From positions 124,001-188,000 of the forward strand of contig NZ_JAHCQH010000004.1 in the NCBI RefSeq assembly GCF_018449475.1: a DNA stretch of 64,000 nucleotides. The letters are read 5' to 3'. The notes under the pieces were generated by a model that was not told the DNA's origin, searched no databases, and was given only the letters and a program-made list of their open reading frames with translations. Origin of the DNA: Ancylobacter radicis (GTDB lineage Bacteria; Pseudomonadota; Alphaproteobacteria; Rhizobiales; Xanthobacteraceae). This document shows positions 11,315-64,000 of the stretch, one piece after another (within the stretch, counting starts at the first letter, position 1; every line of letters begins with the position of its first letter). The translations under genes were made by a program, and so were the position numbers.

Positions 11315-11335
11315 CGTGACCAGCAAGCCCGCGCC

Positions 11336-12889: not shown

Positions 12890-13015
12890 TATTGATTACG
12901 CAGTGCAGCAAAACTGTGCTAGTGGCTCCCGAAGATGGGCGCCCGATGCGGGGCGGCGCGTATCGTGCGGCAGCCATACAGGGGCTGTCCGACTGACGTT
13001 CTCGGAGAGAATCGC

Positions 13016-46346: not shown

Positions 46347-48863
46347 ATGGCGGATAGCGGACACGACGATCCCACTCTCTCCCGCCTCGAGATCGGCGGC
46401 AGCATCCGGCTGGTGCTGGTGGTCGCGCTGGCCCTTGTCGGCGCCGTCGTGTCGCTGCTTCTGCTCGGCCGGGAAAAGGCCGATCCCTGGATCATCGGGC
46501 TGCTGACCGTCCTTGCCGTCATTGGTGTGTTCGCGCTGTTCGCCTATGCGGCTGGCCTGCTGCGCTTCGGCCTGCCGGATGCGCGCGACGAACTCGCCCG
46601 GCGCGTCGTCGACAGCGCGACCGAGGGCATGAGCGTGGTCGATTCGCTCGGCCGCGTGCTCTACGCCAATCCGCGCTATTGCGAGATCATCGGCGCGCCG
46701 AGCCCGGACGAGGCCCGCCCGGTCGAGCGCCTGTTCACCAGCGATCCCGATGCGTCCGAGGCGGTCTACCGGCTCGCCCAGGGCGTGCGCGAGGGCCGTG
46801 CTTCCAGCGAGGAAGTGCGCATCGCCACGCCCGGCCAGCCGGTGCGCTGGCTGCGGCTCGGCGCCCGCCCGGCGCCGGCGGGCCAGCGCGGCGGGCGCTG
46901 CGCGGTGTGGACGGTGAGCGATCTCACCCGCGAGCGCGAGCGGCAGGAGACGGCCTTTCTCGAACTCCAGCACGCCATCGACTATCTCGACCACGCCCCC
47001 GCCGGCTTCTTCTCGGCGGCGGGCGGGGCGATCCACTACATCAACGCCACGCTGGTCGACTGGCTGGGCTATGACCTCGCCGAGTTCGGGCCGGGCGGGC
47101 TCTCCGTGGCCGATCTGGTGCCGGGGCCGGCGGCGGCGCTGCTGACCAACATCGCCCCCGTGCCGGGCGGCGTGCGCACCGAGGTGCTGGATCTCGATCT
47201 GAAGCGCAAGAACGGCCAGACCCTGCCGGTGCGCATCTGGCACCGCGTCGCCTTCGCCTCGGACGGCACGCCCGGCGCCTCGCGCACGCTGGTGGTCAAC
47301 CGCTCGCGCGAGGACAATGCCGGCGACCCCGCCCGCGCCGCCGAGGTGCGCTTCGCCCGGTTCTTCCACAATTCCCCCATTGCCATCGCCACGGTGGACA
47401 GCGAGGGGCGGATCGCCCGCGCCAACGCCATGTTCGCCCGGCTGTTCGGCGGGCGCGAGGCGGCGCGCGGGCGGCGGCTGGTCGAGGTGATCGGCGAGAC
47501 GTCCCGCGTCACCTTCGAGAGCGTGATCGAGGCGGCGGTGAAGGGCCATACGCCGCCCAGCCCGCTCGACATCGCCGCCGAGCGCGATGGCGGGCGCTCG
47601 GTCCGCTTCTATGTCGCGCCGGTGGAAGACGACGCGGCGGGCGGCGAGGCGGCCATCGTCTATGCCATCGACACCACCGAGCAGCGCACGCTGGAGGCGC
47701 AGTTCGCCCAGTCGCAGAAGATGCAGGCGGTCGGCCAGCTCGCCGGCGGGGTGGCGCATGATTTCAACAATGTGCTGACCGCCATCATCGGCTATTCCGA
47801 CCTGCTGCTGGCCAATAGCCGGCCGACCGACCCGTCCTTCCAGGACGTGATGCAGATCAAGCAGAACGCCAACCGGGCCGCCGGGCTGGTGCGTCAGCTT
47901 CTCGCCTTCTCGCGTCGCCAGACGCTGCGCCCGCAGGTGCTGAACCTCGGCGACGTGATGAGCGACCTGTCCATGCTGCTGCGCCGCCTGCTGGGCGAGC
48001 TGGTCAAGCTGGAGGTCAAGGAAGGCCGCGACCTCTGGCCGGTCAAGGCCGACCTCAACCAGTTCGAGCAGGTGATCGTCAATCTCGCGGTCAATGCCCG
48101 CGACGCCATGCCGGAGGGCGGCACACTCACCATCCGCACCGCCAATGTGCCGGCCGAGCAGGCCGAATTCTACGCCGAGGCCGGCCTGCCGCGCGCCGAC
48201 CATGTGCTGGTCGAGGTGTCCGACACCGGCACCGGCATTCCCCCGGCGATCATCGACAAGATCTTCGAGCCGTTCTTCTCCACCAAGGAAGTGGGCAAGG
48301 GCACGGGGCTCGGGCTGTCCACCGTCTATGGCATCGTCAAGCAGACCGGCGGTACGCTCCAGGTGGAGAGCGAGGTCGGCCACGGCTCGGTGTTCCGCGT
48401 GTTCCTGCCGCGCCATGTGCCGGATGTGGTGGAGATTCCCGCCCGCGTCGAAGTGGAGGCGCCGGCCAAGCCGCAGGACCTGACCGGACGCGGCACGCTG
48501 CTGCTGGTCGAGGACGAGGAGGCGGTGCGCGCCTTCGCCGCCCGCGCGCTGGTCTCCCGCGGCTATCAGGTGCTGGAGGCCGGTTCCGGCGTCGAGGCAC
48601 TGGAGGTGATGGCCGAGCATGGCGGCGAGGTGGATCTCATCCTTTCCGACGTCGTCATGCCGGAGATGGACGGCCCCACCCTGCTGAAAGAACTGCGCGG
48701 CACGCATCCCGACATAAAGGTGATATTCATGTCGGGCTATGCCGAGGAAGCCTTCGCCAAGAACCTGCCGGAGGGCGCGGATTTCGGCTTCCTGCCGAAA
48801 CCCTTCACACTCAAGCAGCTTATCGAGGCGGTTAAGAAAAGCATGGGGCGCAGCGACACCTAA
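46347..48863 (+). CDS. cckA: Cell-cycle hybrid histidine kinase CckA
   Basis: 838 residues from ATG 46347 (TTG 46341 is an alternative). Two N-terminal membrane helices (about 20-70) and tandem PAS domains (about 90-195, 205-320, 335-440). The kinase core has the phosphorylated His471 in [21 protein letters not shown] and ATP-lid motifs [18 protein letters not shown] and [13 protein letters not shown]. The C-terminal receiver has phospho-acceptor Asp768 ([17 protein letters not shown]) and the conserved lysine in FLPKPFT. CckA starts the CckA-ChpT-CtrA/CpdR relay controlling division, polarity and often motility and envelope genes. Domain order and H-box sequence fit CckA closely. Confidence 0.95.
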
Positions 48864-48896
48864 GCTGCCGTCCGCACACGAGTTCGGAGAGACCGC

Positions 48897-50540
48897 ATGA
48901 GCACCGCGACGGAAAACGTCTTCAAGACCCTTGCCGCCGACCATGCGGGGCGCGCGACGCAGAAGGTGGCGGCCCTGTTCGCCGAGGATGGCGAGCGGTT
49001 CGCCCGCTTCTCCGCCTCCTTCGAGGACATGCTGCTCGACTACTCCAAATGCTCGATCGCGCCGCAGACCCTGTCGCTGCTGCTCGACCTCGCCCGCGCC
49101 GCCGGCGTCGAGGAAAAGCGCGCCGCCATGTTCGCGGGCGTGCATATCAACCTCACCGAGGACCGGGCGGTGCTGCACACCGCCCTGCGCAACCGCACCG
49201 CCACGCCCTTCGTGGTCGACGGGCAGGATGTGCGCGGCGATGTCGCCACGGTGCTGGCCGATATGAGCGCCTTTGCCGAGGGCATCCGCTCCGGCGCGCT
49301 GAAGGGCGCCACCGGCAAGAAGATCACCGATGTCATCAATATCGGCATTGGCGGCTCGGACCTCGGCCCGGTGATGGCGACGCTGGCGCTGTCGCCCTAT
49401 CATGACGGGCCGCGCGCGCATTACGTCTCCAATGTCGACGGCGCGCATCTGTACGACACCATCAAGCCGCTCGATCCGGCGACCACGCTGGTGATCGTCG
49501 CCTCCAAGACCTTCACCACGCAGGAGACCATGTCGAACGCCGCGAGCGCCCGGCACTGGATCGTCGAGGCGCTCGGCGAGGCGGCGGTGGGGCACCATTT
49601 CGCGGCAGTTTCCACCGCGCTCGACAAGGTGGCGGCCTTCGGCATCGCCCCCGACCGGGTGTTCGGCTTTTGGGACTGGGTCGGCGGGCGCTATTCGGTG
49701 TGGTCGGCGATCGGCCTGCCGGTGATGATCGCGGTCGGGCCGGAGGATTTCGGCCGCTTCCTCGATGGCGGCCACGCCATGGACGAGCATTTCCGCACCG
49801 CGCCGCTGGAGGCCAATCTTCCCGTCCTGCTCGGGCTGGTCGGCATCTGGCACCGCGACGTGTGCGGCTACGCCACGCGCGCGGTCATTCCCTATGACCA
49901 GCACCTCGCCCGCCTGCCGGCCTATCTCCAGCAGCTCGACATGGAGAGCAACGGCAAGCGCGTGACGCTCGACGGCACGCCCGCCGCCCATGATACCGGG
50001 CCGGTGGTGTGGGGCGAGCCGGGCACCAATGGCCAGCACGCCTTCTTCCAGCTCATCCACCAGGGCACCAGCCCGATCCCGGTCGAGTTCCTGATCGCGG
50101 CAAACGGCCATGACGAGGACGCGCTGCCGGGGCTGAAGCGCCAGCACGCCATGCTGATCGCCAATTGCCTCGCCCAGTCCGAGGCGCTGATGCGCGGGCG
50201 CACGCTGGAGGAGGCCAAGGCACAGTTGCTGGCCGCCGGCCGCGACGAGGCGAGCGCGAGCAAGATCGCCCCGCACCGGGTGTTCCCCGGCAACCGGCCC
50301 TCCGTGACCCTCGCCTATGACCGGCTCGACCCCTACACGCTCGGGCGCATCATCGCGCTCTATGAGCACCGCGTGTTCGTGGAAGGGGCGATCTGGAACA
50401 TCAACAGCTTCGACCAGTGGGGCGTCGAGCTCGGCAAGGAACTCGCCAACACGCTGCTGCCGGCGGTGGAGAGCGGGCAGGCCTCGGCCGACCTGTCCGC
50501 CTCGGCGGCGGGGCTGCTGCGCCATCTGACGGGCAAGTAG
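48897..50540 (+). CDS. pgi: Glucose-6-phosphate isomerase
   Basis: 547 residues; interconverts glucose-6-phosphate and fructose-6-phosphate. Signature segments are [18 protein letters not shown] (about 148), the SKTFTTQET phosphate-binding loop (about 203), and [14 protein letters not shown] then the C-terminal [12 protein letters not shown]. The length is that of the long (E. coli-like) form. The ATG follows CGGAGAGA. It lies 33 nt after cckA and 121 nt before pgm, with a palindromic repeat in between; pgi and pgm link glucose-6-P with glycogen and nucleotide-sugar pools. Confidence 0.96.
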
Positions 50541-50547
50541 TCTCAAC

Positions 50548-52290
<1,743 letters not shown>

Positions 52291-52320
52291 GGGCCGACAC
52301 TCTCTCGATACCCATCAACG

Positions 52321-52355
52321 AAAACCGCGCCGCGTTGATTACGCGGCGCGGTTTT
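52321..52355. terminator. Bidirectional terminator between pgm and the MarR gene
   Basis: A 15-bp perfect stem AAAACCGCGCCGCGT (52321-52335) with ACGCGGCGCGGTTTT (52341-52355), 5-nt loop TGATT, between convergent genes. Confidence 0.95.
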
Positions 52356-52395
52356 CACATTCTGCCAGAATGAAAGGCGAGGGAGAGGAGGCGGG

Positions 52396-52959
52396 TCAGC
52401 CGCCTTCGCCGCCATAGCGCAGCGCGCTGGTCCAGTGCATCTCCAGCCTGCGCAGCACATTATAGGCCACGCTTAACTCCATCGCCTCGGCATCGTCGCG
52501 GGGCGCCCGATCGGCGGTCTCGTGCATGGAGCGGATGGCTTCGCACAGGCTGACCGCCTTCGCCGTCAGTCTGAGACGGGCGGAGCGGCGGTCGCGCAGC
52601 GATGGCGAGCGGTGGACATAGCCGCCCTCGACCAGTTGCTTGAGATTGTAGGAGGCGTTGGAGCCGAGGTAATGGCCGCGCTCCAGCAGGTCACGCACCG
52701 ACAATTCGTCGCTGCCGATGGTGAACAGCAGCATGACTTGCGAGGGACTGATGTCGTCAGTGCCGAGCCGGGTCAGCTCGATCCGCAGAAGATCGAGAAA
52801 GCGGCGATGCGCGCGCTCGATCACACGGGCGATTTCCAGATGGTTGATGACGAACTCGGACGGTCCATCCGCGGCGGGTGCTTCCGCCATTGCGGACATA
52901 AGCTGCGCCGGATTCGACGCGACCTCATCGTTCAGTTCTTTGGCCGGCCTTACTACCAT
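52396..52959 (-). CDS. MarR-family winged-helix regulator, LdtR-like
   Basis: 187 residues from ATG 52959 (the frame is open upstream without homology). A winged helix-turn-helix spans about 60-150, with the segment SPSQVMLLFTIGSDELSVRD and the recognition region YLGSNASYNLKQLVEGGYVH and DRRSARLRLT. This resembles the alphaproteobacterial LdtR group, which controls an L,D-transpeptidase and envelope or osmotic stress tolerance in Liberibacter and Sinorhizobium. The LdtR assignment is from remembered motifs and needs a tree. No ldt gene is adjacent. Confidence 0.82.
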   Translation of the reverse strand: MVVRPAKELNDEVASNPAQLMSAMAEAPAADGPSEFVINHLEIARVIERAHRRFLDLLRIELTRLGTDDISPSQVMLLFTIGSDELSVRDLLERGHYLGSNASYNLKQLVEGGYVHRSPSLRDRRSARLRLTAKAVSLCEAIRSMHETADRAPRDDAEAMELSVAYNVLRRLEMHWTSALRYGGEGG

Positions 52960-53211
52960 AAGCGTTGCCCCTTTCTCGGTTTGCGCCCTCCCCGGAAAGG
53001 ACGCCCCCGACGGATCGCGATTCCATAACGCTTTACAGGCGAACCATGACGGAATTCGCGCCTTTCGCAAAGCGGTAAGCTACGGTGGTAGAAAGAAAAT
53101 CGGCGCGTGTCATCGCCCTTCGGCAAGTACAGATTGTATTTCTAGATATTGACGGTTCTCATTTACCGGGAAAATGGGCGCAAGATTGAGGCAAACCTGC
53201 GCACCACCTCG

Positions 53212-53697
53212 CTAGGTTTCCTGAAGATGGGATTCCAGGAACCAAAGCGCTTTGTCGAGCGAACGGGAGGCCGCGGTGAAGATATCGGCCGTGGTCGGGT
53301 CGCCGGCTTCGTCCGATTCGCCGATCGCCTTGCGCACGCTGTTGGCGACGGCGCCGTAGCGCGCGGCCATTTCCTTGAGATGATCGCTGACCTTGTAGAT
53401 GTCGGTCGGATAGGGCTTGAGATGGGTCATCTCGGCCACCGTCTGGGTGGTGCCCAGAGCCGTGCCGCCAAGCTGGACGACCCGCTCGGCTATGGTGTCG
53501 TTATGCCCGTCCAGCTCGGCGCGGAACCCGTCGAGCATCTCGTGCACGGCGATGAATTGCGGGCCCTTGAGGTTCCAGTGGGCCTGCTTGGTGGCGAGGG
53601 CGAGATCGAGTCCCGCGGCCAGATTGGCATTGAGAAGGTCGATGGCGACCTTTTTGGCGTTGGAGGGCAGGTCGTTGGACGTCTTGTGGGTCGGCAT
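53212..53697 (-). CDS. dps: Dps-type DNA-binding ferritin-like protein
   Basis: 161 residues from ATG 53697 with AGAGGAG just upstream. Dps dodecamers oxidise and store iron with H2O2 and shield DNA in stationary phase. The ferroxidase motif is intact: His in [12 protein letters not shown], and H-x11-D-x3-E-type spacing in [24 protein letters not shown]. The short N-terminal tail contains Lys residues ([15 protein letters not shown]) that may contact DNA. Monocistronic. Confidence 0.94.
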
Positions 53698-53816
53698 GGT
53701 CGCTCCTCTGCGGCTTCCGGCATCGCCATCATGGCGCGTTCGCGCCCGTGGCGACACTGGTACGTGGATGGAGAGCAAATTGGCCAGTTAAGCCCGAGGT
53801 CAAGGGCCGGGCGCGC

Positions 53817-54776
53817 TCACGCCTTTCGGTTGTGCAGGATGCGGCCGATGAAGTTGAGCAGCACCTGCGCCGCCAGGATCGAGGTCACCCCGCCCGGATC
53901 ATATTCGCGGGCGACCTCGACGAGATCCACGCCGATCACCGTGCCGCGCTTGGTCAGCCCGTCCAGCAGTTCCAGCACCTCGTAATAGGTGAAGCCGCCA
54001 TGGCTGGGCGTGCCGGTGCCCGGCGCGATGGAGGGGTCGAAGCCGTCAATGTCGATGGTGACGTAGTAACGCTTGCCCTCGGGGATACGGGCGAGCACGG
54101 CCTCCGGGCCGAGCTTGCGGATCTGCCGCACGCTGAGAATGTCCGAGCCCATGGAGCGCGCCGCCTCATAGCCCTCGCGGGCGGTCGAGGAGACGTTGCG
54201 GATGCCGAGCTGGGTGAGTCCGGTGACATAGGGCTTCTCGGCTGCCCGGCGCAGCGGGTTGCCGTGGCCACGGCGCACGCCCTTGCGCTCATCCACGAAA
54301 TCGAGATGGGCGTCGAACTGGACGATGTGGAACGGCTCCTCATCGGCGAACGCCTCGATGCAGGGAATGTTGACCGAATGGTCGCCGCCGAGCACCACGG
54401 GCAGGGCGCCCGCCTTGAGGATCTTGCGCACGCCATATTCGATATTGGCGTGGCTCTGGTCGGTGTCGGTGTGGATCATGTCGGCGTCGCCGATATCGAC
54501 GATGCGAGTCTTCTCCGCCGCCAGATAGGTGACGTCGTCCTCATGGTCATAGGCGCCGGCATGGCCGAAGGAGAACAGCGTCGAGGCCTCGCGAATGGCG
54601 CGCGGGCCGGAGCGGGCGCCCGAGCGCCATTGCGTGCCGAGATCGAAGGGCGCGCCGAGAATGGCGACATCGGCGTCGATCCGGTCCCAGTCGAGCTGGA
54701 GCGGGTATTTGCCGAAGGTGCAGATGCCGACGAAGGGCAGGTCGAGCCGCCCGCTTTCATAGCCATGGGCCATCAA
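53817..54776 (-). CDS. Arginase-fold ureohydrolase A (agmatinase family)
   Basis: 319 residues. The binuclear metal site is complete: His133 (GGDHSVN), Asp155/His157/Asp159 (FDAHLDF) and Asp242/Asp244 (DIDGFDPS), so it should hydrolyse a guanidino compound to an amine or amino acid plus urea. It overlaps the next ureohydrolase gene by 4 nt (ATGA), so they are cotranslated. Annotation pipelines would call it agmatinase (SpeB). However, the cluster also holds a true creatininase and no polyamine gene, which makes creatine, guanidinoacetate or another guanidino acid a plausible substrate. The two enzymes may also form a hetero-oligomer. Confidence 0.88.
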   Translation of the reverse strand: MMAHGYESGRLDLPFVGICTFGKYPLQLDWDRIDADVAILGAPFDLGTQWRSGARSGPRAIREASTLFSFGHAGAYDHEDDVTYLAAEKTRIVDIGDADMIHTDTDQSHANIEYGVRKILKAGALPVVLGGDHSVNIPCIEAFADEEPFHIVQFDAHLDFVDERKGVRRGHGNPLRRAAEKPYVTGLTQLGIRNVSSTAREGYEAARSMGSDILSVRQIRKLGPEAVLARIPEGKRYYVTIDIDGFDPSIAPGTGTPSHGGFTYYEVLELLDGLTKRGTVIGVDLVEVAREYDPGGVTSILAAQVLLNFIGRILHNRKA

Positions 54777-55729
54777 CGCTTCCCCTTGGTCTCGACAACG
54801 CCCGCGAGCACGCAGAGCAGTTCGAACATGATCGTGGCGCCGGTGAGCGCGGTGAGGCCGGACGGGTCGAAAGGCGGGGCGACCTCGACGAGATCGGCGC
54901 CGATCATGTCGAGCCCGTCCAGCAGGCGAACCATTTCCTGCGCCTCGCGGGTGGAGAAGCCGCCGATTTCCGGCGTGCCGGTGCCCGGCGCCTGCGAGGG
55001 GTCGATGCCGTCAATGTCGAAGGTGACATAGGTAGGCCGGTCGCCGACGATGGCGCGCGCTTCCGCCATCACGTCGGCGACGCCGCGGGCGACGAATTCC
55101 TCGATGAAGATGATGCGCACGCCCATCGCGCGGGCATAGTCGTAATTGCCGGCATCCGAGATGGCGCCGCGCAGACCGATCTGCACGAAGCGTTTCGGGT
55201 CGACCAGCCCTTCCTCGATGGCGCGGCGGAACGGGGTGCCATGGGTGTAGCGGGCGCCGTTGAAGAAGCTGTCATAGGTGTCGGAATGGGCGTCGAACTG
55301 GATCAGGCCGACCGGCCCGTCGCTGGCGAGGCCGCGCAGGATCGGCAGGCTGATGAGATGGTCGCCGCCGGCGGTGAGCGGCAGCGCCCCGGCCTCGCGC
55401 ACGCCCTTGTAATGCGCGGTGATGAGGTCGAGCGAGCGCATCAGGTCGAACGGGTCGGTGATGACGTCGCCGCAATCGGCCACGCGCGCCCGGTCATAGG
55501 GCGACAGGCCGGTGACGTGATGCACCCGGCGCATCAGGCTCGACTGGTTGCGCAATTCGCGCGGGCCATGGCGGGTGCCGGCGCGGTTGGTGGTGCCGAG
55601 GTCGAAGGGCAGGCCGAGAATGGCGATGTCGACCTCGGAGGGCTCGGCCACCGGCAGGCGCATGAAGGTCGGCAGACCCGCATAGCGGGGGATGCTGCCG
55701 GAATCGAGGGGCTCGAAGGCGTGGGTCAT
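54773..55729 (-). CDS. Arginase-fold ureohydrolase B (agmatinase family)
   Basis: 318 residues, paralogous to but clearly different from the downstream ureohydrolase. All metal ligands are present: His124 (GGDHLIS), Asp146/His148/Asp150 (FDAHSDT) and Asp238/Asp240 (DIDGIDPS). The product-specificity loop after DAHSDT (YDSFFNGARYTHGTPF) resembles that of agmatinase and guanidinobutyrase. It is translationally coupled to ureohydrolase A. A 187-nt gap with a REP-like element separates it from the creatininase gene, so transcription from the upstream promoter may be attenuated here. Confidence 0.88.
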   Translation of the reverse strand: MTHAFEPLDSGSIPRYAGLPTFMRLPVAEPSEVDIAILGLPFDLGTTNRAGTRHGPRELRNQSSLMRRVHHVTGLSPYDRARVADCGDVITDPFDLMRSLDLITAHYKGVREAGALPLTAGGDHLISLPILRGLASDGPVGLIQFDAHSDTYDSFFNGARYTHGTPFRRAIEEGLVDPKRFVQIGLRGAISDAGNYDYARAMGVRIIFIEEFVARGVADVMAEARAIVGDRPTYVTFDIDGIDPSQAPGTGTPEIGGFSTREAQEMVRLLDGLDMIGADLVEVAPPFDPSGLTALTGATIMFELLCVLAGVVETKGKR

Positions 55730-55788
55730 GTACGGTCTCGCTACGAGGGCGCGATGAGGCGTGGGATCGTTGGGGCGGCGGAGGTGCC

Positions 55789-55894
55789 GCGTGCTTCGAG
55801 ACGCGGGGCGTTGCCCCGCTCCTCAGCATGACGACGTTGGGCTCCGGTCCTCGTCATCCTGAGGTGCCCGGCGCAGCCGGGCCTCGAAGGACGC
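55789..55894. repeat. Inverted pair of a GTCATCCTGAGG-type repeat
   Basis: Copy 1 (55789-55833) and copy 2 (55852-55894) are inverted versions of one element of about 44 nt. Each has CTTCGAG, a GC-rich hairpin core and CCTCAG-ATGACG ends. The similar short repeat with GTCATCCTGAGG and CCTCGAAGGA is common in alphaproteobacterial genomes. The pair forms a large cruciform between the creatininase and ureohydrolase genes. Confidence 0.85.
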
Positions 55895-55916
55895 AGACGG
55901 GTTTCCGTTGTCGCCC

Positions 55917-56693
55917 CTACAGCCCGAATTCCTTGCGGATGGCGGCGGAGATGTAGGTGACGTAATCGGCCATCAGCAGTTCTCCCTTTTCGGCGGTGGA
56001 GCCGGTAGCGACCGCCAGCACGCCCGAGGGCGGCAGGCCGAAATCGGCCGGTACGGGGAATTTGTCATAGGGCGGGAAGGTCGCGGGGCCGTCGGTCGGC
56101 ACCTTGTCCATCTCCACGAGGTCCGGGCGCAGCACCAGCATGAGCGAGGTCTCCAAAAGGCTCGCATGTTCGAGGTCGATGCCGGGGAAGCCGTCCGGGA
56201 ACAGCGCGTCGAGCGTGCCGCGCTGGGCGAAATCCCAATATTCCAGCCGCATCACCTGCATGTCGGTGATGCCGTCGCGGGCGAGCTCGCGCAAGCCGAG
56301 GTCAAGCCCTTCCACGGAGGGCCACAGATTCTCGTAATGGCCGTTGAGTACCACCAGCCGGCGCACGCCCTGCCGGCCGAGATTGCGGATCACATCGCGC
56401 AGCACGAGCGCGAAGGTGTGGGCATCAAGGCTCAGCGTGCCGGGAAAGGCCTCGCCGCCGCCCGAGCGCGGCATCGACTTGCAGCCATAGTTCACGGTCG
56501 GGGCGACGATGCCGCCGACCTCGCGGGCGACGCGCTCGCACACGCCGGTCGGCAGCGTCACATCCACGTTCAGCGGCAGATGCGGGCCGTGCTGCTCGGT
56601 GGAACCGAGCGGCAGGAACACCGGCGCGCCGGCGGCAATCTTCGCCGCGAATTCAGGCCAGCTCAGTTCATCGAGACGGACGCTGTCGACCAT
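55917..56693 (-). CDS. Creatininase (creatinine amidohydrolase)
   Basis: 258 residues from ATG 56693 with AGAGGAAA upstream. Catalyses creatinine + water to creatine. Metal and catalytic residues match the Pseudomonas enzyme: Glu33, His35 (STEQHGPH), Asp44 (NVDVTLPT), His119 and Glu121 (NGHYEN). Beyond these it shares long distinctive segments I remember from P. putida creatininase: KS-x3-SGGG-x2-FPGT-SLD, YWDF, IEH/LEHA-x3-ETSLML, PATFPPYD-x-FPV and EKGEL. This argues for real creatininase rather than the wider family (MftE, IolN, FAPy deformylase). It sits between two SDR genes and two ureohydrolase genes. Confidence 0.85.
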   Translation of the reverse strand: MVDSVRLDELSWPEFAAKIAAGAPVFLPLGSTEQHGPHLPLNVDVTLPTGVCERVAREVGGIVAPTVNYGCKSMPRSGGGEAFPGTLSLDAHTFALVLRDVIRNLGRQGVRRLVVLNGHYENLWPSVEGLDLGLRELARDGITDMQVMRLEYWDFAQRGTLDALFPDGFPGIDLEHASLLETSLMLVLRPDLVEMDKVPTDGPATFPPYDKFPVPADFGLPPSGVLAVATGSTAEKGELLMADYVTYISAAIRKEFGL

Positions 56694-56725
56694 GTGTTTT
56701 CCTCTGATGCTCAGTGCATCCGTTG

Positions 56726-57451
56726 TCAGTGCATGCCCGCGCCGCCGTCGACACTGATGCATTGCCCGGTGATGAAGCCGGTGGCGCGGCTCGCAAGGAA
56801 CAGCACCGCCTGCGCGATTTCCTCCGGCCGGCCGACACGGCCGAGCGGGTTGGTGGTCTCCAGCGCCCGCTCGGCCGGACTCATGCGGTCCAGCCCCAGC
56901 AGCGGCGTATCCACCGGGCCGGGCGCGACGGCGTTGACGAGGATGTGGGGGGCGAGTTCGCGGGCCCAGGAGCGGGTGAGCCCCAGCACCGCGCCCTTGG
57001 TGGCGCAATAGCCGGAGGCGCCGGCGCGGCCGAGATAGGCGAGTTCCGAGGCGATGTTGATGATGCGTCCGCGTACCGGGCCGTTGCCGTTGAAATGCCG
57101 CAGAGACTCGCGCGCCATGAGGATCGGCCCGCGCACATTGACCGCCGCCATGCGCTCGTAAACCGCGATGTCGAAGTTGGCGAGCGGAGTGTCCGCGAGC
57201 ACACCGGCGCAGTTAACGATGACGTCCAGCCCGCCGAGATGGTCGCGCGCTGCATCCATGCCGGCGATGACGGCGGCCTCGTCCGACACATTGGTGAGGA
57301 TGGTCGGCCAGTGCGAGGTCTGCTCCGGCGGGTGCAGGTCGAAGCCCACCACCTTGGCGCCGGCGGCGCTCAGCGCGTCGGCGCAGGCGCGGCCGATGCC
57401 GCTGCCCGCGCCGGTGACGATGACGCGCAAATCCTTGTGGGGGCTCACCAT
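56726..57451 (-). CDS. Short-chain dehydrogenase/reductase 2
   Basis: 241 residues from ATG 57451, overlapping the stop of the preceding SDR gene by 7 nt (ATGGTGA). NAD(P)-binding TGAGSGIG (about 13-20) and the catalytic triad Ser135, Tyr148, Lys152 (YCATK). The acidic Asp38 after the second strand (VGFDLH) favours NAD. Typical of classical SDRs oxidising sugars or hydroxy acids; the substrate is unknown. It lies 32 nt before the creatininase gene in the same operon. Confidence 0.88.
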   Translation of the reverse strand: MVSPHKDLRVIVTGAGSGIGRACADALSAAGAKVVGFDLHPPEQTSHWPTILTNVSDEAAVIAGMDAARDHLGGLDVIVNCAGVLADTPLANFDIAVYERMAAVNVRGPILMARESLRHFNGNGPVRGRIINIASELAYLGRAGASGYCATKGAVLGLTRSWARELAPHILVNAVAPGPVDTPLLGLDRMSPAERALETTNPLGRVGRPEEIAQAVLFLASRATGFITGQCISVDGGAGMH

Positions 57452-58203
57452 GGGAATTCTCCTCGGTCGACGCCGAGGCTCTGGCCGGTGATGTTGGCCG
57501 CAAGGTCGGACGCCAGGAACAGATAGGTGCCGGCAATATCCTCCGGCTCCATGAAGCCCGGCAGGATCTGCGCCGACACGATCTCGTTCAAGAGCGTTTC
57601 CGGCTCGACAGCCATGCGCGCCGCCATGGCGTGGAGCGAGCGCAGCGAGGCCTCCGTGCGCACCCAGCCCGGACACACGGCATTGACGGTGATGCCGCGC
57701 GGCCCGAGCTCCTTCGCCCAGGTCTTGGTGAGGCCGATCACCGCGTGTTTGGAGGCGACATAGGCGCCGAACAGCGCCTCGGCCGAACGCGACCAGATGG
57801 AGGCGGTGTTGATGATGCGCCCGCCATGGCCCATGCCCGGCAGCAGCGCGCGGGTGACGAGGAAGGTGCCGACGACGTTGATCTCCACCACGCGGCGGAA
57901 GATCGCCTCATTGGCCGCGCCGGCATCGTCGAGCGGGGTGACGAGTTCGAGGCCGGCATTGTTCACCAGTACGTCGAGCTTGGGGATCGCCTGCGCCACC
58001 GCCGCCACCGCCTCGCTGGAGGTGATGTCCGCCTGATGCCCGCGCGCCCCGAGCCGGCCGGCAGCCTCGTGGATCGCCGCGTCGTCGGCCAGCATGTGCA
58101 GTTCCGCGCCGGCCGCCGCGAAGGCGCGGGCGATGCCATGGCCGATGCCGCGGCTGGAGCCGGTGACGAGGACGGTGCGGCCGGCGAGCCCTTCGAGCTT
58201 CAT
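57445..58203 (-). CDS. Short-chain dehydrogenase/reductase 1
   Basis: 252 residues from ATG 58203 (the frame is open for 180 more codons through the repeat region without homology). The cofactor motif is TGSSRGIG (about 14-21), NNAG at about 81, and the triad Ser135, Tyr148, Lys152 (YVASK). It ends with the usual VDRGEF variant of the C-terminal VDGG motif. First gene of the minus-strand cluster, divergent from the LysR gene; with its neighbour it could oxidise a hydroxy intermediate. Substrate unknown. Confidence 0.87.
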   Translation of the reverse strand: MKLEGLAGRTVLVTGSSRGIGHGIARAFAAAGAELHMLADDAAIHEAAGRLGARGHQADITSSEAVAAVAQAIPKLDVLVNNAGLELVTPLDDAGAANEAIFRRVVEINVVGTFLVTRALLPGMGHGGRIINTASIWSRSAEALFGAYVASKHAVIGLTKTWAKELGPRGITVNAVCPGWVRTEASLRSLHAMAARMAVEPETLLNEIVSAQILPGFMEPEDIAGTYLFLASDLAANITGQSLGVDRGEFPW

Positions 58204-58282
58204 GCGGGTAGGTCGCAGGGGAGGGAGGGGACGCGCATGGGGAACTCCGAGGCGAGAGGTGCCATGCTGGCGCAGTTTCACT

Positions 58283-58329
58283 TTCCGAAAAATCGGAATT
58301 AGTGGAAGGATGTATCGAGGAAACTCGAT
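58283..58329. promoter_or_regulatory. Two operator-like dyads in the LysR/SDR divergent promoter region
   Basis: Dyad 1 is TTCCGA-AAAA-TCGGAA (58283-58298) and dyad 2 is ATCGAG-GAAA-CTCGAT (58314-58329). Both are perfect 6-4-6 palindromes, centred 31 bp apart, about three helical turns. They lie 80-126 bp upstream of the SDR start and 160 bp or more from the LysR start. Geometry and place fit recognition and activation sites of a LysR-type tetramer. Confidence 0.6.
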
Positions 58330-58361
58330 GTATCGGACATGTCCCTTCGAGCCACCACCTG

Positions 58362-58460
58362 CCGTCATCCCGGAGGGTCCGCAGGACCGAGCCGGGAGCG
58401 CGTGGAGGTAGGCGGGCGGAGCACGATCCCGGCTCTCGCTGCGCTCGGCCGGGATGACGG
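58362..58460. repeat. REP-like nested palindrome before the LysR gene
   Basis: Outer repeat CCGTCATCCCGG (58362-58373) with CCGGGATGACGG (58449-58460); inner repeat GAGCCGGGA (58389-58397) with TCCCGGCTC (58427-58435). The same plan and end sequence as the element at 50548-50639. Confidence 0.85.
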
Positions 58461-58488
58461 TAAGGGCACAAGCGGAGGGAACACGCCG

Positions 58489-59430
58489 ATGCGGCGGCTG
58501 GACAATATCGACCTGCGGCTGCTGCGCGTTTTCGTCGTGCTGGCGCAGGAGGGCGGGTTTCAGGATGCGCAGATCGCGCTCAACCTCTCGCAATCGACGC
58601 TCTCCACCCATCTGGCGGCGCTGGAGCGCAAGCTCGGCGGGCAGCTCTGCGAGCGGGGGCGGACGGGGTTCCGGCTCACGTCCTTCGGCGAATCGACACT
58701 CGCCGCGGCGCTCCGGCTGTTCGAGGACATCGACGCCTTTCACGGCCGGATCGGGCGCGACCAGCGCCGCCTCGTCGGGCGGCTGCGGCTCGGCATCGTC
58801 GATGGCGTCGTCACCAACCCTCAGCTCGGGCTCCAGACGGCGCTGGCGCGCTACATGGACTACGCCTCGGAAGTCTTCGTCGATCTCGAACTAGGCACGC
58901 CGCTGGCGCTGGAGCGGGCGCTGATGGACGGGCAGCGCGACCTTGTGGTCGGACCGTTCTCGCAGAAGGTGCCGGGCATCACCTATATTCCGCTGCACCG
59001 CGAGGCGCAGGCGCTCTATTGCGGGCGCGGCCATGCGCTGTTCGACCTGCCGGGTGCCGAGATCAGCCATGCCCGGATCGAGGAGGCGCTGTTCTCCGTG
59101 CGGCGCTACCGCCACCTCGACGACCTCTACCGGGTGAACCACCCGCGCGCGAGCGCCGCCATCGTGCAGATGGAGGCGCAGGTGATGATGATCCTGTCCG
59201 GCCGCTTCATCGGCTATCTGCCGCGCCATATCGGCGAGGATTGGGTCGGGCGCGGGCAGATGCGGGTGCTGAGACCGGAGAGCTATGGCTTCGATTCCGC
59301 CCATTTCGCCGCGACCCGCCGGCTGAAGGGCGAGCAGCCGCTGATCGACGCCTTCATCCGCGAATTGCAGGCGCAGGCCAAGGCGCGGCCTGATGCGTCG
59401 CCGGAGGCGGGCACTCAGGTGATGCGGTAG
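58489..59430 (+). CDS. LysR-type transcriptional regulator
   Basis: 313 residues from ATG 58489, with GGAGGG about 10 nt upstream. The winged helix-turn-helix is at about 5-62 (LRLLRVFVVLAQEGGFQDAQ, then LNLSQSTLSTHLAALERKLG). The effector-binding domain spans 90-300. It is divergent from the SDR-creatininase-ureohydrolase cluster and probably its regulator, with two dyads in between. The effector may be a guanidino compound or a cluster intermediate. The 3' end overlaps the convergent polysaccharide gene by 16 nt. Confidence 0.9.
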   Translation: MRRLDNIDLRLLRVFVVLAQEGGFQDAQIALNLSQSTLSTHLAALERKLGGQLCERGRTGFRLTSFGESTLAAALRLFEDIDAFHGRIGRDQRRLVGRLRLGIVDGVVTNPQLGLQTALARYMDYASEVFVDLELGTPLALERALMDGQRDLVVGPFSQKVPGITYIPLHREAQALYCGRGHALFDLPGAEISHARIEEALFSVRRYRHLDDLYRVNHPRASAAIVQMEAQVMMILSGRFIGYLPRHIGEDWVGRGQMRVLRPESYGFDSAHFAATRRLKGEQPLIDAFIRELQAQAKARPDASPEAGTQVMR

Positions 59431-61538
59431 ATCCAGTCCGGCAGGATGTAGCGCCGGCCGACGAAGACGAAGCCGAGCGGCACGCCGCCATTCTCCACCA
59501 CGGCGCTGCGCAGCGCGGTCGCGGCGGGCTTGCGGGTCTTCTCGGCCCGCACCACCAGCACATTGCCGTCAACCAGCGCGTCGATCCGGTGGCCTCGGGC
59601 GGCGGCATCGGCCGCCGTGGCGCAGAACACCACCGCCTCGAACTCGCCGCGCAGCTCGTCCATCAGCCTGTCGGCCTCGATCAGCGGGGTGCGCGGGTCG
59701 AGCAGCGGCGAGCCCTCCACCGCCGCGAGGCTCCACAGCAGCGGCGTCGGCGTCGGGTAGGCGAGAATGCCGCCCTTGAGGCGGGCGGTGGGGTCGTCGC
59801 GCAGATCCGGCGCGGAAGCGAGATCGACCAGCAGGGTGCGCAGGCCGCGCTGCGTGGTGAATTCGGCGGCCACGCCCTCGGCGAGCGTGCGCAGGGCCTC
59901 CTCCGCGTCGGAGCTGAGGAACTGCACGATGCGCAGCGGACGGTCATCGACCCGCGTGTCGAGCAGCAGGGCGGCAAGGTTGCCGGCATCGCGCTGGAGC
60001 GCCGCCGGATCGCCGGAGCGCGACTGGTTGTCATATTCGCCGAGGATCGGCACTTCGAGCGCCCGCTCGGCCTCCAGCGGCATGATGAAGGTCGAGCGCA
60101 GCGCCGAGGCCACCGCCCCGGCGGCGGCGGCGAACAGCAGCGCGCCGAGCACGCCCGCGCCGAGGAAGGGCAGGCGCATCGAGCGGTTGGTCACCGAGGC
60201 GCCGGCGTCCTGCACCAGCCGGACATTGGATTCGCGTTCGGTGGCGGCGGATTCCTCGATCTTGGCGGCGGTCGCCCGGCGCAGATATTCGCGATAGCCC
60301 TCCGACAGCGTCTCGCGGCGGCGGTTCAGCTCGACCAGTTCGGTTTCCGCCGCGCGCAGCGTGGTGAGGCGCTTTTCCGCATCGGCCTGCTGGTCAACGA
60401 GTTCCTTTTCCTGCCGGTCGAGCGCGTCCGCCTCGATGCGCAAGCTGAGGATCATGTTGTTCACATAGCCGACCGCCGGGTTGCGCACGTCGCGGCTGGT
60501 CTCGTAGAGCCGCTCATTGCGGGTGGCGATCTGCTTGCGGATGGTCTCGATCTTGCGGTTGATCTCCCGCATCATCGCGCCATTGGCCGAATATTGCAGC
60601 GACAGGCGGTCGCGCTCGATCAGCAGGCGGGTCAGCGTGTTGTTGTCGTCGTCATTGCCGAGCGCGTCGCTTTTCTGGTTGAAGTCGAACACGGTCGGCG
60701 GGAGGCCGGCGAGCTGCTTCTCGGCCTCGGCAAGCTGGCCGGCAACCGCTACCCGGCGCTCGGCCACCTGCCGGCGGCGCTGCACCACCGAATCCACCTG
60801 ATTGGCGGCGAGCACCGCGTCCTGGTCGAAATCGATGATGCCGACGCGGGTCTTCAGCGCCTCGACGGCGAGGTCGGTGGCGGTGAGATCGCGCTGGAAC
60901 CGCTCGACCTCGGCCTGGAGGATGCGCGCGGTGGGGTTCTCCATGATGATGCGCCGGCGCGCCATATAGGCGGCCACCAGCTTGTCGGTCGCCTCGATGG
61001 CGATGGCGCGGTCGGGATGGGTGAAGGACACCTCGACGACATTGGAGCCGTCCAGCACCTGCGCGCGCAGATTACGCCGGAACCGCTCGATCGCCCGGTC
61101 CATGGCGCTGCCGCTGCTGGCGAAGAAATCGCGCACGCCGGACAGAAGCCCCGGCGGGAACAGCGTCTCGCGTCCCATCTCGTCGATTACCGTGCGGATG
61201 ACGTCGGCGCTCTCCAGGATCTGCACCTCGGACTCGACCTGCTTCAGCCCTTCGATGGAGAGCACCGCCGGCCCGCTGCCGGTCACGTTCTGGGCGTTCG
61301 TCACCTCGCGGCTGACGATCACCATGAGCAGGCTGTTGGCGGTGTACTCGGTTTTGGCGAAGGTCGCCGCCGCCACGCCCGCCGCCAGCGGCAGCAGCGC
61401 GGCAAGGAGAATGATGCGGATGTGGAAGAAGGCGGCGATCAGGAAGTCGCGCAGCGTGAAGCTCGGCGGCCGGCTGCCGGGCCACTGGCCGGCGGGCGTG
61501 CCCTCGACGCCGTCCGCATAGGTTCCCGTCATCGCCAT
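59415..61538 (-). CDS. Wzc/GumC-like polysaccharide co-polymerase with degenerate kinase domain
   Basis: 707 residues from ATG 61538 (ATG 61532 is also possible). The N-terminal Wzz domain has a membrane helix (ILLAALLPLAAGVAAATF, about 43-60). It is followed by long periplasmic coiled coils, a GNVR-type region and a second membrane helix (about 465-490). The C-terminal domain (about 525-707) has the fold of a BY-kinase, but where a Walker A with GKS/T is expected it reads LSSDAEEALRTLAEG, and there is no tyrosine cluster at the end. It is probably catalytically inactive and acts in chain-length control or as a scaffold. Confidence 0.87.
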   Translation of the reverse strand: MAMTGTYADGVEGTPAGQWPGSRPPSFTLRDFLIAAFFHIRIILLAALLPLAAGVAAATFAKTEYTANSLLMVIVSREVTNAQNVTGSGPAVLSIEGLKQVESEVQILESADVIRTVIDEMGRETLFPPGLLSGVRDFFASSGSAMDRAIERFRRNLRAQVLDGSNVVEVSFTHPDRAIAIEATDKLVAAYMARRRIIMENPTARILQAEVERFQRDLTATDLAVEALKTRVGIIDFDQDAVLAANQVDSVVQRRRQVAERRVAVAGQLAEAEKQLAGLPPTVFDFNQKSDALGNDDDNNTLTRLLIERDRLSLQYSANGAMMREINRKIETIRKQIATRNERLYETSRDVRNPAVGYVNNMILSLRIEADALDRQEKELVDQQADAEKRLTTLRAAETELVELNRRRETLSEGYREYLRRATAAKIEESAATERESNVRLVQDAGASVTNRSMRLPFLGAGVLGALLFAAAAGAVASALRSTFIMPLEAERALEVPILGEYDNQSRSGDPAALQRDAGNLAALLLDTRVDDRPLRIVQFLSSDAEEALRTLAEGVAAEFTTQRGLRTLLVDLASAPDLRDDPTARLKGGILAYPTPTPLLWSLAAVEGSPLLDPRTPLIEADRLMDELRGEFEAVVFCATAADAAARGHRIDALVDGNVLVVRAEKTRKPAATALRSAVVENGGVPLGFVFVGRRYILPDWIYRIT

Positions 61539-61651
61539 TATGCCACTCGCGCTCGCCGGCACCGCCGGAGAAGCTGCCCTCAACCACTGTTTCCAGGCCG
61601 TAACTGTGACGGGTTAACGCTAATGTGCGGTAAATATGCCGCTGCGAAACG

Positions 61652-62977
61652 TCAGAACGCCTGCGGCATCAGGCGCCGAACGGCCAGGGCGGTGCCGATC
61701 GCCCCCTGCGCGATGACGAGCGCCGTCAAGATCGCCGCCCCGTTCATCCCGTAGAGCGGCACGAGCACGGCTCCGGCGGCACAGCAGACGAGGAACTGCG
61801 CGACGTTCAGCCAGCGCAGCAGGCTGCCATGGCCGGTCATCGCCAGCATGATGTCCTGGCAGGAGAGCAGGCCGTTCACCAACTGCCCCGCCGCCATGAT
61901 GACAAGGGCAGTGGCGGCGATCTCGAAGCCGGGGCCGATGAGGGCGAGCAGCGGCGCGGGGGCCAGCATCATGATCGCGATCGGCGGCAGGCTGCACAGC
62001 GCCACCAGACGCCGCACCCGCCGGTTCTGCGCCCGCAGCGCCGCCCAGTCGCCGGTGCGGTGGAACGCGGCAAAGCGGGGGGCGGCGATCGAGCCGATGG
62101 CGATGATGACCACCCAGATGAGGATGGACAGCCGATTGGCGATGCTGAAGGCGCCGACTTCCGCCGCGCTGGCGAAGACCGCGAGCAGCAGCATGGGGAT
62201 GGAGTTCAGCGAGACCTGCACCACCTCGACCATGCCGAGCGGCAGCGCCGTGCGCCAGAGCGCGGGCAGGGCCGCAGGGGCGTCGGCAAGGGCTCCGGCG
62301 GGTGCATCAGCGGTTGTCGGCTGGGGTGCGGGGATCGGGTCCCGCATGGCTCGCAGGATCAGCACCGCACCGATGGCGGTGGCGGCAAGGTTGCACAGGG
62401 CCAGCGCGTAGAGCATGGCGCTCAGCGAGTGGGCGCCGGCCGCCATGGCGGCGAAGGTGAAGACCGGCCAGGAGCCATTCTGCACGAATTGCCCGGCCAC
62501 GCCGCGATTGAAGCCGAACAGCGCATGGCCGGCATAGAAGCACAGCGCCTGCGGCAGGATGGACAGCGCGGCGATGCGCAGCGGCGCGGCCAGATCCGGG
62601 TCGTGAAACAGATAGTGCGCGGCGGGCGCGGCGGCGGCGAGCGTCGCCAGGGTCGCCGCGATGCCGCCGATCAGCGTCCAGCCGAGCCCGGTGAGCAGGG
62701 CCTGTCGGGCGAGATCGGTCTTGCCGAGGGCGATTTCCGCCGCCATGTGGCGCACCGCGGCCTTCTCGAATCCGGCGCGGGCGAGGGTGGCGGCGAGCCC
62801 GACCCAGGTCAGGCAGATGAAATAGAGCCCCGCCTCATGCGCGCCGAGCAGCCGCGCGGCCAGCATGAACAGGCCGAGCTTGCCGACGATTTCCAGCCCG
62901 CGCACCGCCAGCGCCCCGGCATAGGGCGCATAGCCCAGCGCCAGCCGGCCAAGTCTCGCAAGACGGGAAAGCTCCAT
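61652..62977 (-). CDS. Wzx-like polysaccharide flippase
   Basis: 441 residues from ATG 62977 with AAGGGG upstream. About twelve to fourteen hydrophobic helices; the start resembles MOP-superfamily oligosaccharide flippases (VRGLEIVGKLGLFMLAARLLGAHEAGLYF). It probably flips undecaprenyl-linked repeat units of the exopolysaccharide whose export genes flank it. It is 113 nt upstream of the Wzc-like gene on the same strand. Confidence 0.85.
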   Translation of the reverse strand: MELSRLARLGRLALGYAPYAGALAVRGLEIVGKLGLFMLAARLLGAHEAGLYFICLTWVGLAATLARAGFEKAAVRHMAAEIALGKTDLARQALLTGLGWTLIGGIAATLATLAAAAPAAHYLFHDPDLAAPLRIAALSILPQALCFYAGHALFGFNRGVAGQFVQNGSWPVFTFAAMAAGAHSLSAMLYALALCNLAATAIGAVLILRAMRDPIPAPQPTTADAPAGALADAPAALPALWRTALPLGMVEVVQVSLNSIPMLLLAVFASAAEVGAFSIANRLSILIWVVIIAIGSIAAPRFAAFHRTGDWAALRAQNRRVRRLVALCSLPPIAIMMLAPAPLLALIGPGFEIAATALVIMAAGQLVNGLLSCQDIMLAMTGHGSLLRWLNVAQFLVCCAAGAVLVPLYGMNGAAILTALVIAQGAIGTALAVRRLMPQAF

Positions 62978-63080
62978 GCGACCCCTTGGAAGGCGACCGC
63001 CCGTCGCGGGAAAGCGCAGACAGGCGCGGCGCGGCGTGGCATATGCAAGGCCCCTCGGGGCCGGACCGGATTTAGCTCGC

Positions 63081-63494
63081 ATGAACCACGCAGCCCGCCG
63101 GGCCGCAAGATGCTTGTGCGTCGCCTTCGCGGTCGCGGCCGTGCTGCCGCTCGCGGCGGGCGCGGCGCGGGCGCAAGCGGGGCTCAGCGATCTGCCGGGC
63201 GACAGCGCGGTCGATCCCTCGATCGACCCCTTCCCCTTCGATGGGCGGCTGGCGATTCGCGACTATCTGCGGCGCACCCTGCCGACGCGCTGGTGGGCGA
63301 ACGAACCCTCTTTCTCGCTCGGTACCTGGTCCGCCATGGTGCATGTGCCCGATGACTGGAAGGGCAATCCGACCGCCGCGATGATCCGCTTCTGCCCGCC
63401 GCGGGGCAGCACGCTGTGGCGCCATATCGAGCGGCTCGACCTCGTGCCCTTCTATCGCGACGCCCGGCGGGCGGGCACCACCTGCCGTCCCTGA
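63081..63494 (+). CDS. Small secreted protein of unknown function
   Basis: 137 residues from ATG 63081. Signal peptide (CLCVAFAVAAVLPLAAGAARAQA, split about residues 10-31). The mature part is short (about 105 residues) with aromatic/proline-rich segments (DPFPFDGRLAIRDYLRRTLP, TRWWANEPSFSLGTW) and two cysteines near the end. Not recognised. Its position between the flippase and wza-like gene suggests a role near polysaccharide export, but this is only context. Confidence 0.65.
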   Translation: MNHAARRAARCLCVAFAVAAVLPLAAGAARAQAGLSDLPGDSAVDPSIDPFPFDGRLAIRDYLRRTLPTRWWANEPSFSLGTWSAMVHVPDDWKGNPTAAMIRFCPPRGSTLWRHIERLDLVPFYRDARRAGTTCRP

Positions 63495-63528
63495 ATGCGC
63501 ATGGCGGAAGCCGAGTCATTCCAAGCAT

Positions 63529-63544
63529 TTAAGGCTTCATTAAC
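63529..63544. promoter_or_regulatory. Perfect CtrA-type box before the wza-like gene
   Basis: TTAA-GGCTTCA-TTAAC (63529-63544) matches the CtrA consensus TTAA-N7-TTAAC exactly, 79 nt before the wza-like start. The stretch to the start codon also includes AT-rich sequence usable as promoter. Confidence 0.7.
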
Positions 63545-63622
63545 TGCGTTTCTTTAGGTTTCGACCGTCGCCTTCCGCGCTGCCGATTTCAGGGCGGGAA
63601 GGCCGCGAGCCGGAGAAGATGA

Positions 63623-64000
63623 ATGCCCTTGGCCGATAGAGGCGACGACGCGCCCCGCTTCCGCGCCGCCGGATCGGCGGTCGGGGGGCTGCGCGCCGTG
63701 TTGCCGACGTTGATGGCCGCCCTGCTTCTTGCCGGCTGTACCACGACGAGCCGCGACACGACCGGTTCGGTCGGCCAGCCGCAAAGTCCGGGCGATGCCT
63801 TCACCACGGGACAGGAACTGCGCTTCACCGAGGTGAACCCGACGGGTTTCCGGCCCTGGAGCAGCCAGATGCCGGCCTACCGGATCGGGCCCGGCGACAA
63901 GCTCAAGATCAAATATTTCCTCACCCGCGAGATGGACGAGGAACTCACCGTCTCGCCGGACGGCACGGTCGCGCCGCGCGCGGTCGGCCAGCTCAAGGTC
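63623..64000 (+). CDS. Polysaccharide export lipoprotein, Wza-like (partial)
   Basis: Runs off the right edge after 126 codons. ATG 63623 has GGAG at 63612-63615; an overlapping ATG at 63619 is out of frame. Signal peptide with lipobox LAGC, Cys39 lipidated. The polysaccharide-export (Poly_export) domain starts with YRIGPGDKLKIKYFLTREMD and VSPDGTVAPRAVGQL. Wza-type proteins form the outer-membrane channel for capsule or exopolysaccharide, working with the Wzc-like protein at 59.4 kb. Confidence 0.9.
   Translation, partial: MPLADRGDDAPRFRAAGSAVGGLRAVLPTLMAALLLAGCTTTSRDTTGSVGQPQSPGDAFTTGQELRFTEVNPTGFRPWSSQMPAYRIGPGDKLKIKYFLTREMDEELTVSPDGTVAPRAVGQLKV

Follow-up and report, generated by a model that had tools for sequence, protein, structure and literature searches.

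Candidate operon for a guanidino compound in Ancylobacter radicis, combining a creatininase-family protein without Trp174 and two arginase-fold ureohydrolases

The DNA analyzed here, referred to below as the window, is a stretch of 64,000 nucleotides (nt) from Ancylobacter radicis (NZ_JAHCQH010000004.1, positions 124,001 to 188,000) and is part of contig C20 of a 4.2-Mb genome. It carries a cluster of genes encoding two short-chain dehydrogenases (SDR1 and SDR2), a creatininase-family amidohydrolase (CRN), and two arginase-fold ureohydrolases (UreA and UreB), next to a divergent gene for a LysR-type regulator. The original prediction for this locus was a new route of creatinine degradation. 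Because creatininase-type proteins divide by one residue and by their partner genes, and because a guanidine riboswitch precedes operons of a sister group, creatinine is not supported as the substrate, and a guanidino route is strengthened. We tentatively favor the interpretation that these genes form a catabolic operon under LysR control, directed at a guanidino compound that is not creatinine.

The gene cluster and its proteins

CRN passes the TIGR04448 creatininase model, and among solved structures it best matches creatinine amidohydrolase chains, e.g., 1j2t; its scores as a mycofactocin MftE- or IolN-type protein were far under the cutoffs. CRN had been credited with the full set of creatininase residues. 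Alignment to Pseudomonas putida creatininase, whose numbering is used throughout, showed that E34, H36, D45, H120, E122, W154, H178, and E183 are retained, and we assume for them the roles that they have in creatininase. The claim held for the metal ligands, W154, H178, and E183 and failed at Trp174, which is replaced by Ile, and at Asn82-His83, replaced by Glu-Ala. We take Trp174 to line the substrate pocket of creatininase and Asn82 to lie in it. Among the 25 CRN orthologs from loci encoding UreB, W174 is present in 0/25, with Ile or Thr at position 174, and Asn82 is lost in all, with Glu, Gln, or Pro at position 82; the ortholog at locus L044 still has His at position 83. The solved chain 3a6e has Phe where 1j2t has Trp174, presumably as an engineered change.

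The six His/Asp metal ligands that were checked are intact in UreA, UreB, and their aligned orthologs. The best PDB match of UreA was 3-guanidinopropionase (3nip; 403 bits, E value of 7.7e-120), and that of UreB was agmatinase (1wog; 193.9 bits, E value of 4.4e-56); relatives of UreB are annotated as speB/agmatinase. The agmatinase model TIGR01230 (cutoff, 174.3) does not discriminate between the two, since UreB scored 180.1 but UreA also scored 184.9. UreA has both the arginase family fold and the His/Asp metal ligands that were looked for in a guanidino-acid ureohydrolase of the GpuA/GbuA type. At the position of GpuA Tyr157, which we take to be a specificity residue, Phe is found in 17 of the 22 UreA-type rows, the window UreA among them, and Tyr is present in 5 (L079, L111, L123, L153, and L156). 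Besides UreA and UreB, two arginase-fold genes lie within ~5 kb of each other, with a LysR-like gene, in L036 (C15:80000-99900; ~8236-13362); the genome contains seven arginase-fold matches in all.

The start ATG of SDR2 overlaps the stop codon of SDR1, the UreA stop and the UreB ATG share the overlap TGATG, and a gap of 187 nt separates CRN from UreA (Table 1). The two translationally coupled ureohydrolases with intact metal sites, the two minus-strand SDRs, and the divergent LysR gene were all located as originally described. The LysR-type regulator is likely the controller of the operon, and a LysR match was seen close to most of the CRN copies of the window type in the neighborhood comparison. 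By our own reading of the open reading frames (ORFs), the operon is flanked by housekeeping and exopolysaccharide genes. Named sequences closest to UreB come mostly from Ancylobacter (Xanthobacteraceae).

Table 1. Genes of the cluster, with positions in the window
Feature	Position	Strand	Basis
SDR1, 3-hydroxybutyrate-dehydrogenase-like short-chain dehydrogenase	57445..58203	-	TIGR01963, 193.5 bits, under the cutoff of 307
SDR2, short-chain dehydrogenase	56726..57451	-	PF13561/PF00106
CRN, creatininase-family amidohydrolase, variant (Ile174, Glu82-Ala83)	55917..56693	-	TIGR04448, 358.7 bits (cutoff, 235)
UreA, arginase-fold ureohydrolase	54773..55729	-	PF00491, 302.7 bits; best PDB match, 3nip
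UreB, second arginase-fold ureohydrolase	53817..54773	-	PF00491, 267.2 bits; best PDB match, 1wog
LysR-type regulator, divergent	58489..59430	+	PF00126 and PF03466

Residue 174 and the genomic context of creatininase-type proteins

Creatininase-type copies were collected from the set of UreB loci, from class-wide (11/385 genomes), family-wide (29/391), and phylum-wide (10/398) searches, from one genus outside the class (14/25), and from plasmids, of which 10 of 46 records (40 listed) were opened by our own choice (H1, H2, H6, H4, H5, H10, H11, H14, H19, and H24). Merging only identical CRN sequences reduced the 105 copies to 95 distinct sequences; some genomes were included twice, as named contigs and under G handles. 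One copy with fewer than 200 aligned residues (L250) was left out. This is a truncated creatininase remnant on plasmid pA of A. polymorphus ZM13 (7001-7573), with gaps at the N-terminal metal ligands E34, H36, and D45; on either side of it, transposase genes are no more than a few kilobases away. Neighbors were scored within 8.5 kb at thresholds of 40% for SDRs, 50% for UreA/UreB, 60% for creatinase, 34% for Pot-type substrate-binding proteins (SBPs), and 40% for deaminase/hydantoinase. The SDR queries also included those of L243, a locus with Phe at position 174 (Phe174); the window SDRs by themselves match the Phe174 loci fetched earlier at 38 to 47%.

Trp174 was present in 32 of the 95 sequences, 31 of which also have Asn82. 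All 32 lie near creatinase (12 sequences), a Pot-type SBP (31), or deaminase/hydantoinase (17), and none lies near the SDRs or UreA/UreB. The creatinase query, an M24 protein, is a creatine amidinohydrolase by its solved relatives. The 63 sequences that lack Trp174 have Ile (29), Thr (17), Phe (14), Leu (2), or Tyr (1) at this position; SDRs or UreA/UreB were found close to 59 of them, and creatinase, Pot-type SBPs, and deaminase/hydantoinase were near 0/63 within 8.5 kb. The loci fetched later (L238 to L251 and L262 to L275) agree with this split, exceptions apart. Matches under the thresholds were seen for SDRs near the Trp174 copies L147, L223, and L248 (29 to 36%) and for the M24 protein near L142 (37%). 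The exceptions without Trp174 were kept in the count and consist of L204, L271, which stops at a contig end, and L143 and L148, which have Leu174 and Pro154, lie close to a BiuH-like gene, and represent a third type. At L204 (6494-10708; genome G671), the neighbors of a window-type CRN with Thr174 are another kind of ureohydrolase, an amidohydrolase of the TRZ/ATZ type, and a RutB/BiuH-like isochorismatase, with BMP-like SBP genes recognized by eye; this variant cluster resembles heterocycle catabolism. In a phylogeny, a window-type clade of 47 rows had support of 96/83 and the clade of P. putida and creatinase-linked sequences had support of 100/99. Support for the deeper joins is weak, and L248, a row with Trp174, is placed loosely with the window-type sequences.

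The conservation of the gene set was assessed from the other direction in the best 80 of 455 UreB loci. CRN was present in 25 of the 80, distributed over several alphaproteobacterial families, and UreA and SDR1 were present in all 25; this co-occurrence is not due to chance. The claim of a conserved and apparently undescribed gene set joining a creatininase fold with ureohydrolases was upheld. With regard to the proposed check of co-occurrence, UreA and SDR1 accompany CRN in 25/25 loci, and no creatinase was found in the genome; CRN and SDR1 are both absent from 46 of the 80 UreB loci.

A PuuE-like protein of the polysaccharide deacetylase family was present in 14 of the 80 UreB loci and never together with CRN, and it was found in eight of the nine loci with SDR1 and without CRN. 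Its match to PuuE is weak (72.5 bits; cutoff, 424.6). Because the two proteins are mutually exclusive in the 80 loci, these data suggest that CRN and the PuuE-like protein are alternative enzymes for one amide-opening step and that this step is conserved. Operons with the order UreB-SDR-SDR-polysaccharide deacetylase type were seen at L155, L156, L112, L116, L119, and L122, and in part of these an NCS1 permease and a gene of the choline dehydrogenase family are also encoded; at L122, listed also as a UreB locus without SDRs, the latter passes the betA cutoff.

UreB may have a broader role, or may use creatine-like acids as a substrate in some bacteria, because it is often found without CRN or SDR1 and in some cases near diaminopropionate ammonia-lyase or creatinase. 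In L110, it lies near a diaminopropionate ammonia-lyase gene (382.8 bits; cutoff, 276), and it was also found on a plasmid behind an amino acid ABC transporter. Creatinase is close to UreB in 2 of the 80 loci, L106 (SAR116) and L087 (an alphaproteobacterial metagenome-assembled genome), and the creatinase of L087 was confirmed against solved creatinases; it is in these two bacteria that creatine-like acids may be substrates. UreB near diaminopropionate ammonia-lyase-type, EutA-like, or M24 proteins together with a Pot-type ABC transporter was observed at L092, L101, L110, L120, L106 (SAR116/Puniceispirillum), and L087. No single substrate emerges from the UreB neighbors at loci without CRN (diaminopropionate ammonia-lyase, EutA-like, choline-dehydrogenase-like, and NCS1 permease genes).

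The A. radicis genome encodes three creatininase-family proteins. The paralog at C6:493.5 kb has N82, H83, and W174 (TIGR04448, 374.1 bits), and its neighbors are a Pot-type SBP gene, deaminase genes, hydantoinase A and B homologs, and an isochorismatase-family gene. A near-identical set is annotated on plasmid pLGM of A. pratisalsi (97 to 98% for the four shared proteins that were compared). A known route converts creatinine to N-methylhydantoin and then to N-carbamoylsarcosine, and the C6 cluster fits this route by annotation and context; the isochorismatase, deaminase, and hydantoinase B of the cluster did not reach a curated cutoff. Within the genus Ancylobacter, a CRN match was present in 28 of 30 genomes and a further copy at 50 to 53% identity in 15 of these 28, and all 15 further copies have Trp174 with a Pot-type SBP and a deaminase nearby (for genome G136, a plasmid record with the same coordinates was used for this context). 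Creatinine is therefore probably handled by genes elsewhere in the genome, since a residue-complete creatininase lies in a deaminase/hydantoinase cluster there and such copies occur in the genus. No creatinase was found with the creatinase query in this genome, for which the best match was 27% over 196 amino acids (E value of 8.5e-6); this single weak match falls in one of two PF01321 matches, which were followed only by that query. The third creatininase-family protein (L037, C18:8000-27900; 8686-12118) scored 92.5 bits, under the creatininase cutoff, and lies near another arginase-fold protein and, by eye, RidA-like, SBP, and malate/lactate dehydrogenase-like proteins; this region is possibly a second guanidino cluster.

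Phe174 operons and the guanidine-I riboswitch

In the phylum-wide search, four genomes outside the Alphaproteobacteria carried a CRN with Phe174. The operons encode CRN, an SsuA-type SBP, a fatty-acid-desaturase-family protein, two SDRs, a BiuH-like isochorismatase, and a protein that we call protein X; a permease was matched in three of the four. The isochorismatase of L242 is biuret hydrolase-like (247.8 bits, under the cutoff of 370). Rfam comparison placed a guanidine-I riboswitch before the SBP gene in all four loci, and in 9 of 10 further genomes from the genus to which two of the four belong, giving 13 of 14 Phe174 loci; the tenth locus, L271, ends at a contig end just behind the CRN start. 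In four Trp174 loci of this same genus (g400), which carry creatinase and a Pot-type SBP, the riboswitch was found in 0/4. The guanidino link of the original prediction is strengthened by this element, which may be taken to speak directly for the sister group and for the window by homology only.

Protein X was also found in three alphaproteobacterial CRN loci, L061, L064, and L123, and the sister and alphaproteobacterial operons have in common CRN, SDRs, an SsuA-type SBP, and protein X. Because protein X occurs in both, the comparison supports the view that the two sets of operons are homologous. This protein has ~255 to 270 amino acids and no Pfam match (L064, 8951-9718; L061, ~8957; L123, 1387-2157; also L241 to L244 and L262 to L271). 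An SsuA-type SBP similar to the L064 protein (at least 59%) was present in 15 of the CRN loci searched, mostly outside Ancylobacter. A Rieske oxygenase is encoded in L058, L059, L061, L064, and L146, with glycine betaine monooxygenase as the nearest model (128.6 bits; cutoff, 670), and the desaturase-family protein is the oxygenase candidate in the sister operons.

A possible guanidino route, its alternatives, and known systems

We hypothesize a pathway, possible rather than probable at present, that would begin with the oxidation of a substituted or cyclic guanidine to an acylguanidine. A creatininase in which Trp174 has been replaced would open this product, and arginase-fold hydrolases in the Alphaproteobacteria or a biuret hydrolase-like enzyme in the riboswitch-controlled sisters would complete the pathway. 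The substrate would be a substituted and probably cyclic guanidine; streptidine, galegine, and pterin and isocytosine rings were considered as possible candidates, and none was singled out. In many relatives, the compound would be imported by an SsuABC-type transporter. An oxygenase (Rieske or desaturase family in some relatives) and the two SDRs would then oxidize the carbon beside the guanidine nitrogen to a carbonyl. Creatinine itself contains such a unit, closed into a ring. CRN, in which Trp174 no longer shapes the pocket, would hydrolyze the acyl-N bond, and UreA would cleave the freed guanidino acid to urea and an amino acid, with UreB acting on the same or a related intermediate. The urea could be used by a urease, for which a gene was found elsewhere in the genome.

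Several points weigh against this interpretation. No oxygenase or SsuABC-type importer gene was recognized in the window operon, and we infer both the chemistry of oxidation to an acylguanidine and the order of the steps. The context thresholds were chosen when some of the data were already known, and the 95 sequences are related rather than independent events, so that Fisher P values overstate independence. The groups are not clean clades, as the join of window-type and Phe174 sequences (81/76) includes the Trp174 row L248, and over half of the UreB loci lack both CRN and SDR1, as noted above. Among the sister operons, L242 shows only one SDR, and no UreA/UreB match was found in the Phe174 operons; since these contain a BiuH-like isochorismatase, the last step may differ. 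The guanidine-I riboswitch (RF00442) was not found at positions 52000 to 62000 of the window with E values up to 1, nor in the 11 window-type alphaproteobacterial loci scanned, and its presence in the window or in these alphaproteobacterial operons was rejected.

A linear N-alkylguanidine route, in which the oxygenase and SDRs would oxidize an alkyl carbon, CRN would split the acylguanidine to give free guanidine, and guanidine or side products would be the substrates of the ureohydrolases, appears unlikely. UreA is closer to guanidino-acid hydrolases (3nip and 3nio) than to 7esr, which we take to be a chain of the guanidine hydrolase type, no guanidine carboxylase gene was recognized by eye in the gene lists read, and the riboswitch scans of the window and the 11 alphaproteobacterial loci were negative. 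This route does agree with the guanidine-I riboswitch before the sister operons, as the excerpted text of PMC12508155 describes such a riboswitch from V. boliviensis that binds guanidine and not methylguanidine. The same text describes, in a riboswitch-controlled operon, an oxygenase whose product is a guanidine hemiaminal, and with it a route to guanidine that depends on an oxygenase.

It is also conceivable, but quite unlikely, that the compound used by CRN is not the one used by UreA/UreB and that the operon serves general nitrogen scavenging under one LysR regulator. The UreB loci without CRN and SDR1, such as L110 with its diaminopropionate ammonia-lyase, the plasmid copy behind the amino acid transporter, and the lack of UreB near the CRN copies L140, L153, L196, and L206 would all be accommodated by such a scheme; however, CRN, the SDRs, and UreA mostly occur together across families, and UreA is present in every UreB locus with CRN.

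The route originally predicted, in which creatine formed from creatinine by CRN, or guanidinoacetate, is hydrolyzed to urea by UreA and/or UreB in place of creatinase, is now very unlikely. CRN does score over the TIGR04448 cutoff, the genome yielded no creatinase, and creatinase lies close to UreB in two loci. Moreover, 3-guanidinopropionase is the closest solved relative of UreA, and the substrate of that enzyme is similar in size to creatine. However, Trp174 and Asn82 are lost in 25/25 orthologs from UreB loci, the residue-complete paralog lies in a deaminase/hydantoinase cluster with a second copy of that kind in 15 of 28 genomes of the genus, and none of the 63 sequences without Trp174 is near creatinine genes. 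The SDRs would have no role in this route, nor would the oxygenases and SsuABC of relatives, and a human relative of the UreA/UreB-type ureohydrolases requires an acidic group in its substrate and accepts neither creatine nor guanidinoacetate, according to the excerpted text of PMC9772407. Lastly, the overlapping tandem genes and the tandem ureohydrolase genes of metformin/dimethylguanidine hydrolase (PMC11399263) might suggest that UreA and UreB form one heteromeric enzyme, which we judge highly improbable, as the beta subunit of that enzyme has a degenerate metal site in the excerpted account, both sites are intact here, and each protein is found without the other.

If the guanidino interpretation is correct, TIGR04448 would misname a whole subgroup of creatininases as creatinine enzymes. 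Groups of proteins annotated as "creatininase" differ in pocket residues and partners, and creatinine degradation would have been assigned wrongly to some genomes and metagenomes. The group without Trp174 would point to a guanidine degraded by many bacteria, and the riboswitch of the sister operons makes the guanidine link directly testable.

CRN is like the creatininases solved as 1j2t and 1v7z in family (TIGR04448), metal ligands, W154, H178, and E183 and differs from them by Ile174 and Glu82-Ala83; unlike creatinine-linked creatininases, it has no creatinase, deaminase, hydantoinase, or Pot-type SBP nearby. The best solved relatives of UreA are 3-guanidinopropionase (3nip) and guanidinobutyrase (3nio), with the same metal ligands, and UreA differs from GpuA (3nip) by Phe at Tyr157 and by its CRN and SDR partners. 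Metformin/dimethylguanidine hydrolase (MefH/DmgH; also MetCaCb) resembles UreA/UreB in its two tandem genes; in the excerpted account of PMC11399263, it differs in its one degenerate subunit site, and its operon carries nickel chaperone genes, and no hypA/hypB was recognized by eye among ORFs of at least 100 amino acids at positions 48000 to 64000. The guanidine-I riboswitch operons, among them the one with MgdH/MgdL, which demethylate methylguanidine, place an oxygenase acting on a substituted guanidine and an ABC importer under a guanidine riboswitch of the kind found in the sister CRN operons; as excerpted from PMC12508155, they continue by a carboxylase pathway, whereas SDRs, CRN, and ureohydrolases are encoded here, with no riboswitch found in the window. 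In titles and starts of abstracts from the openly licensed literature, we found no published gene set joining a creatininase with ureohydrolase, SDR, biuret, or desaturase partners, which lends weak support to novelty, nor were guanidine, riboswitch, and creatininase found together in that literature. The folds and single steps are known, the combination of genes is apparently new, and the creatininase subgroup is a distinct one.

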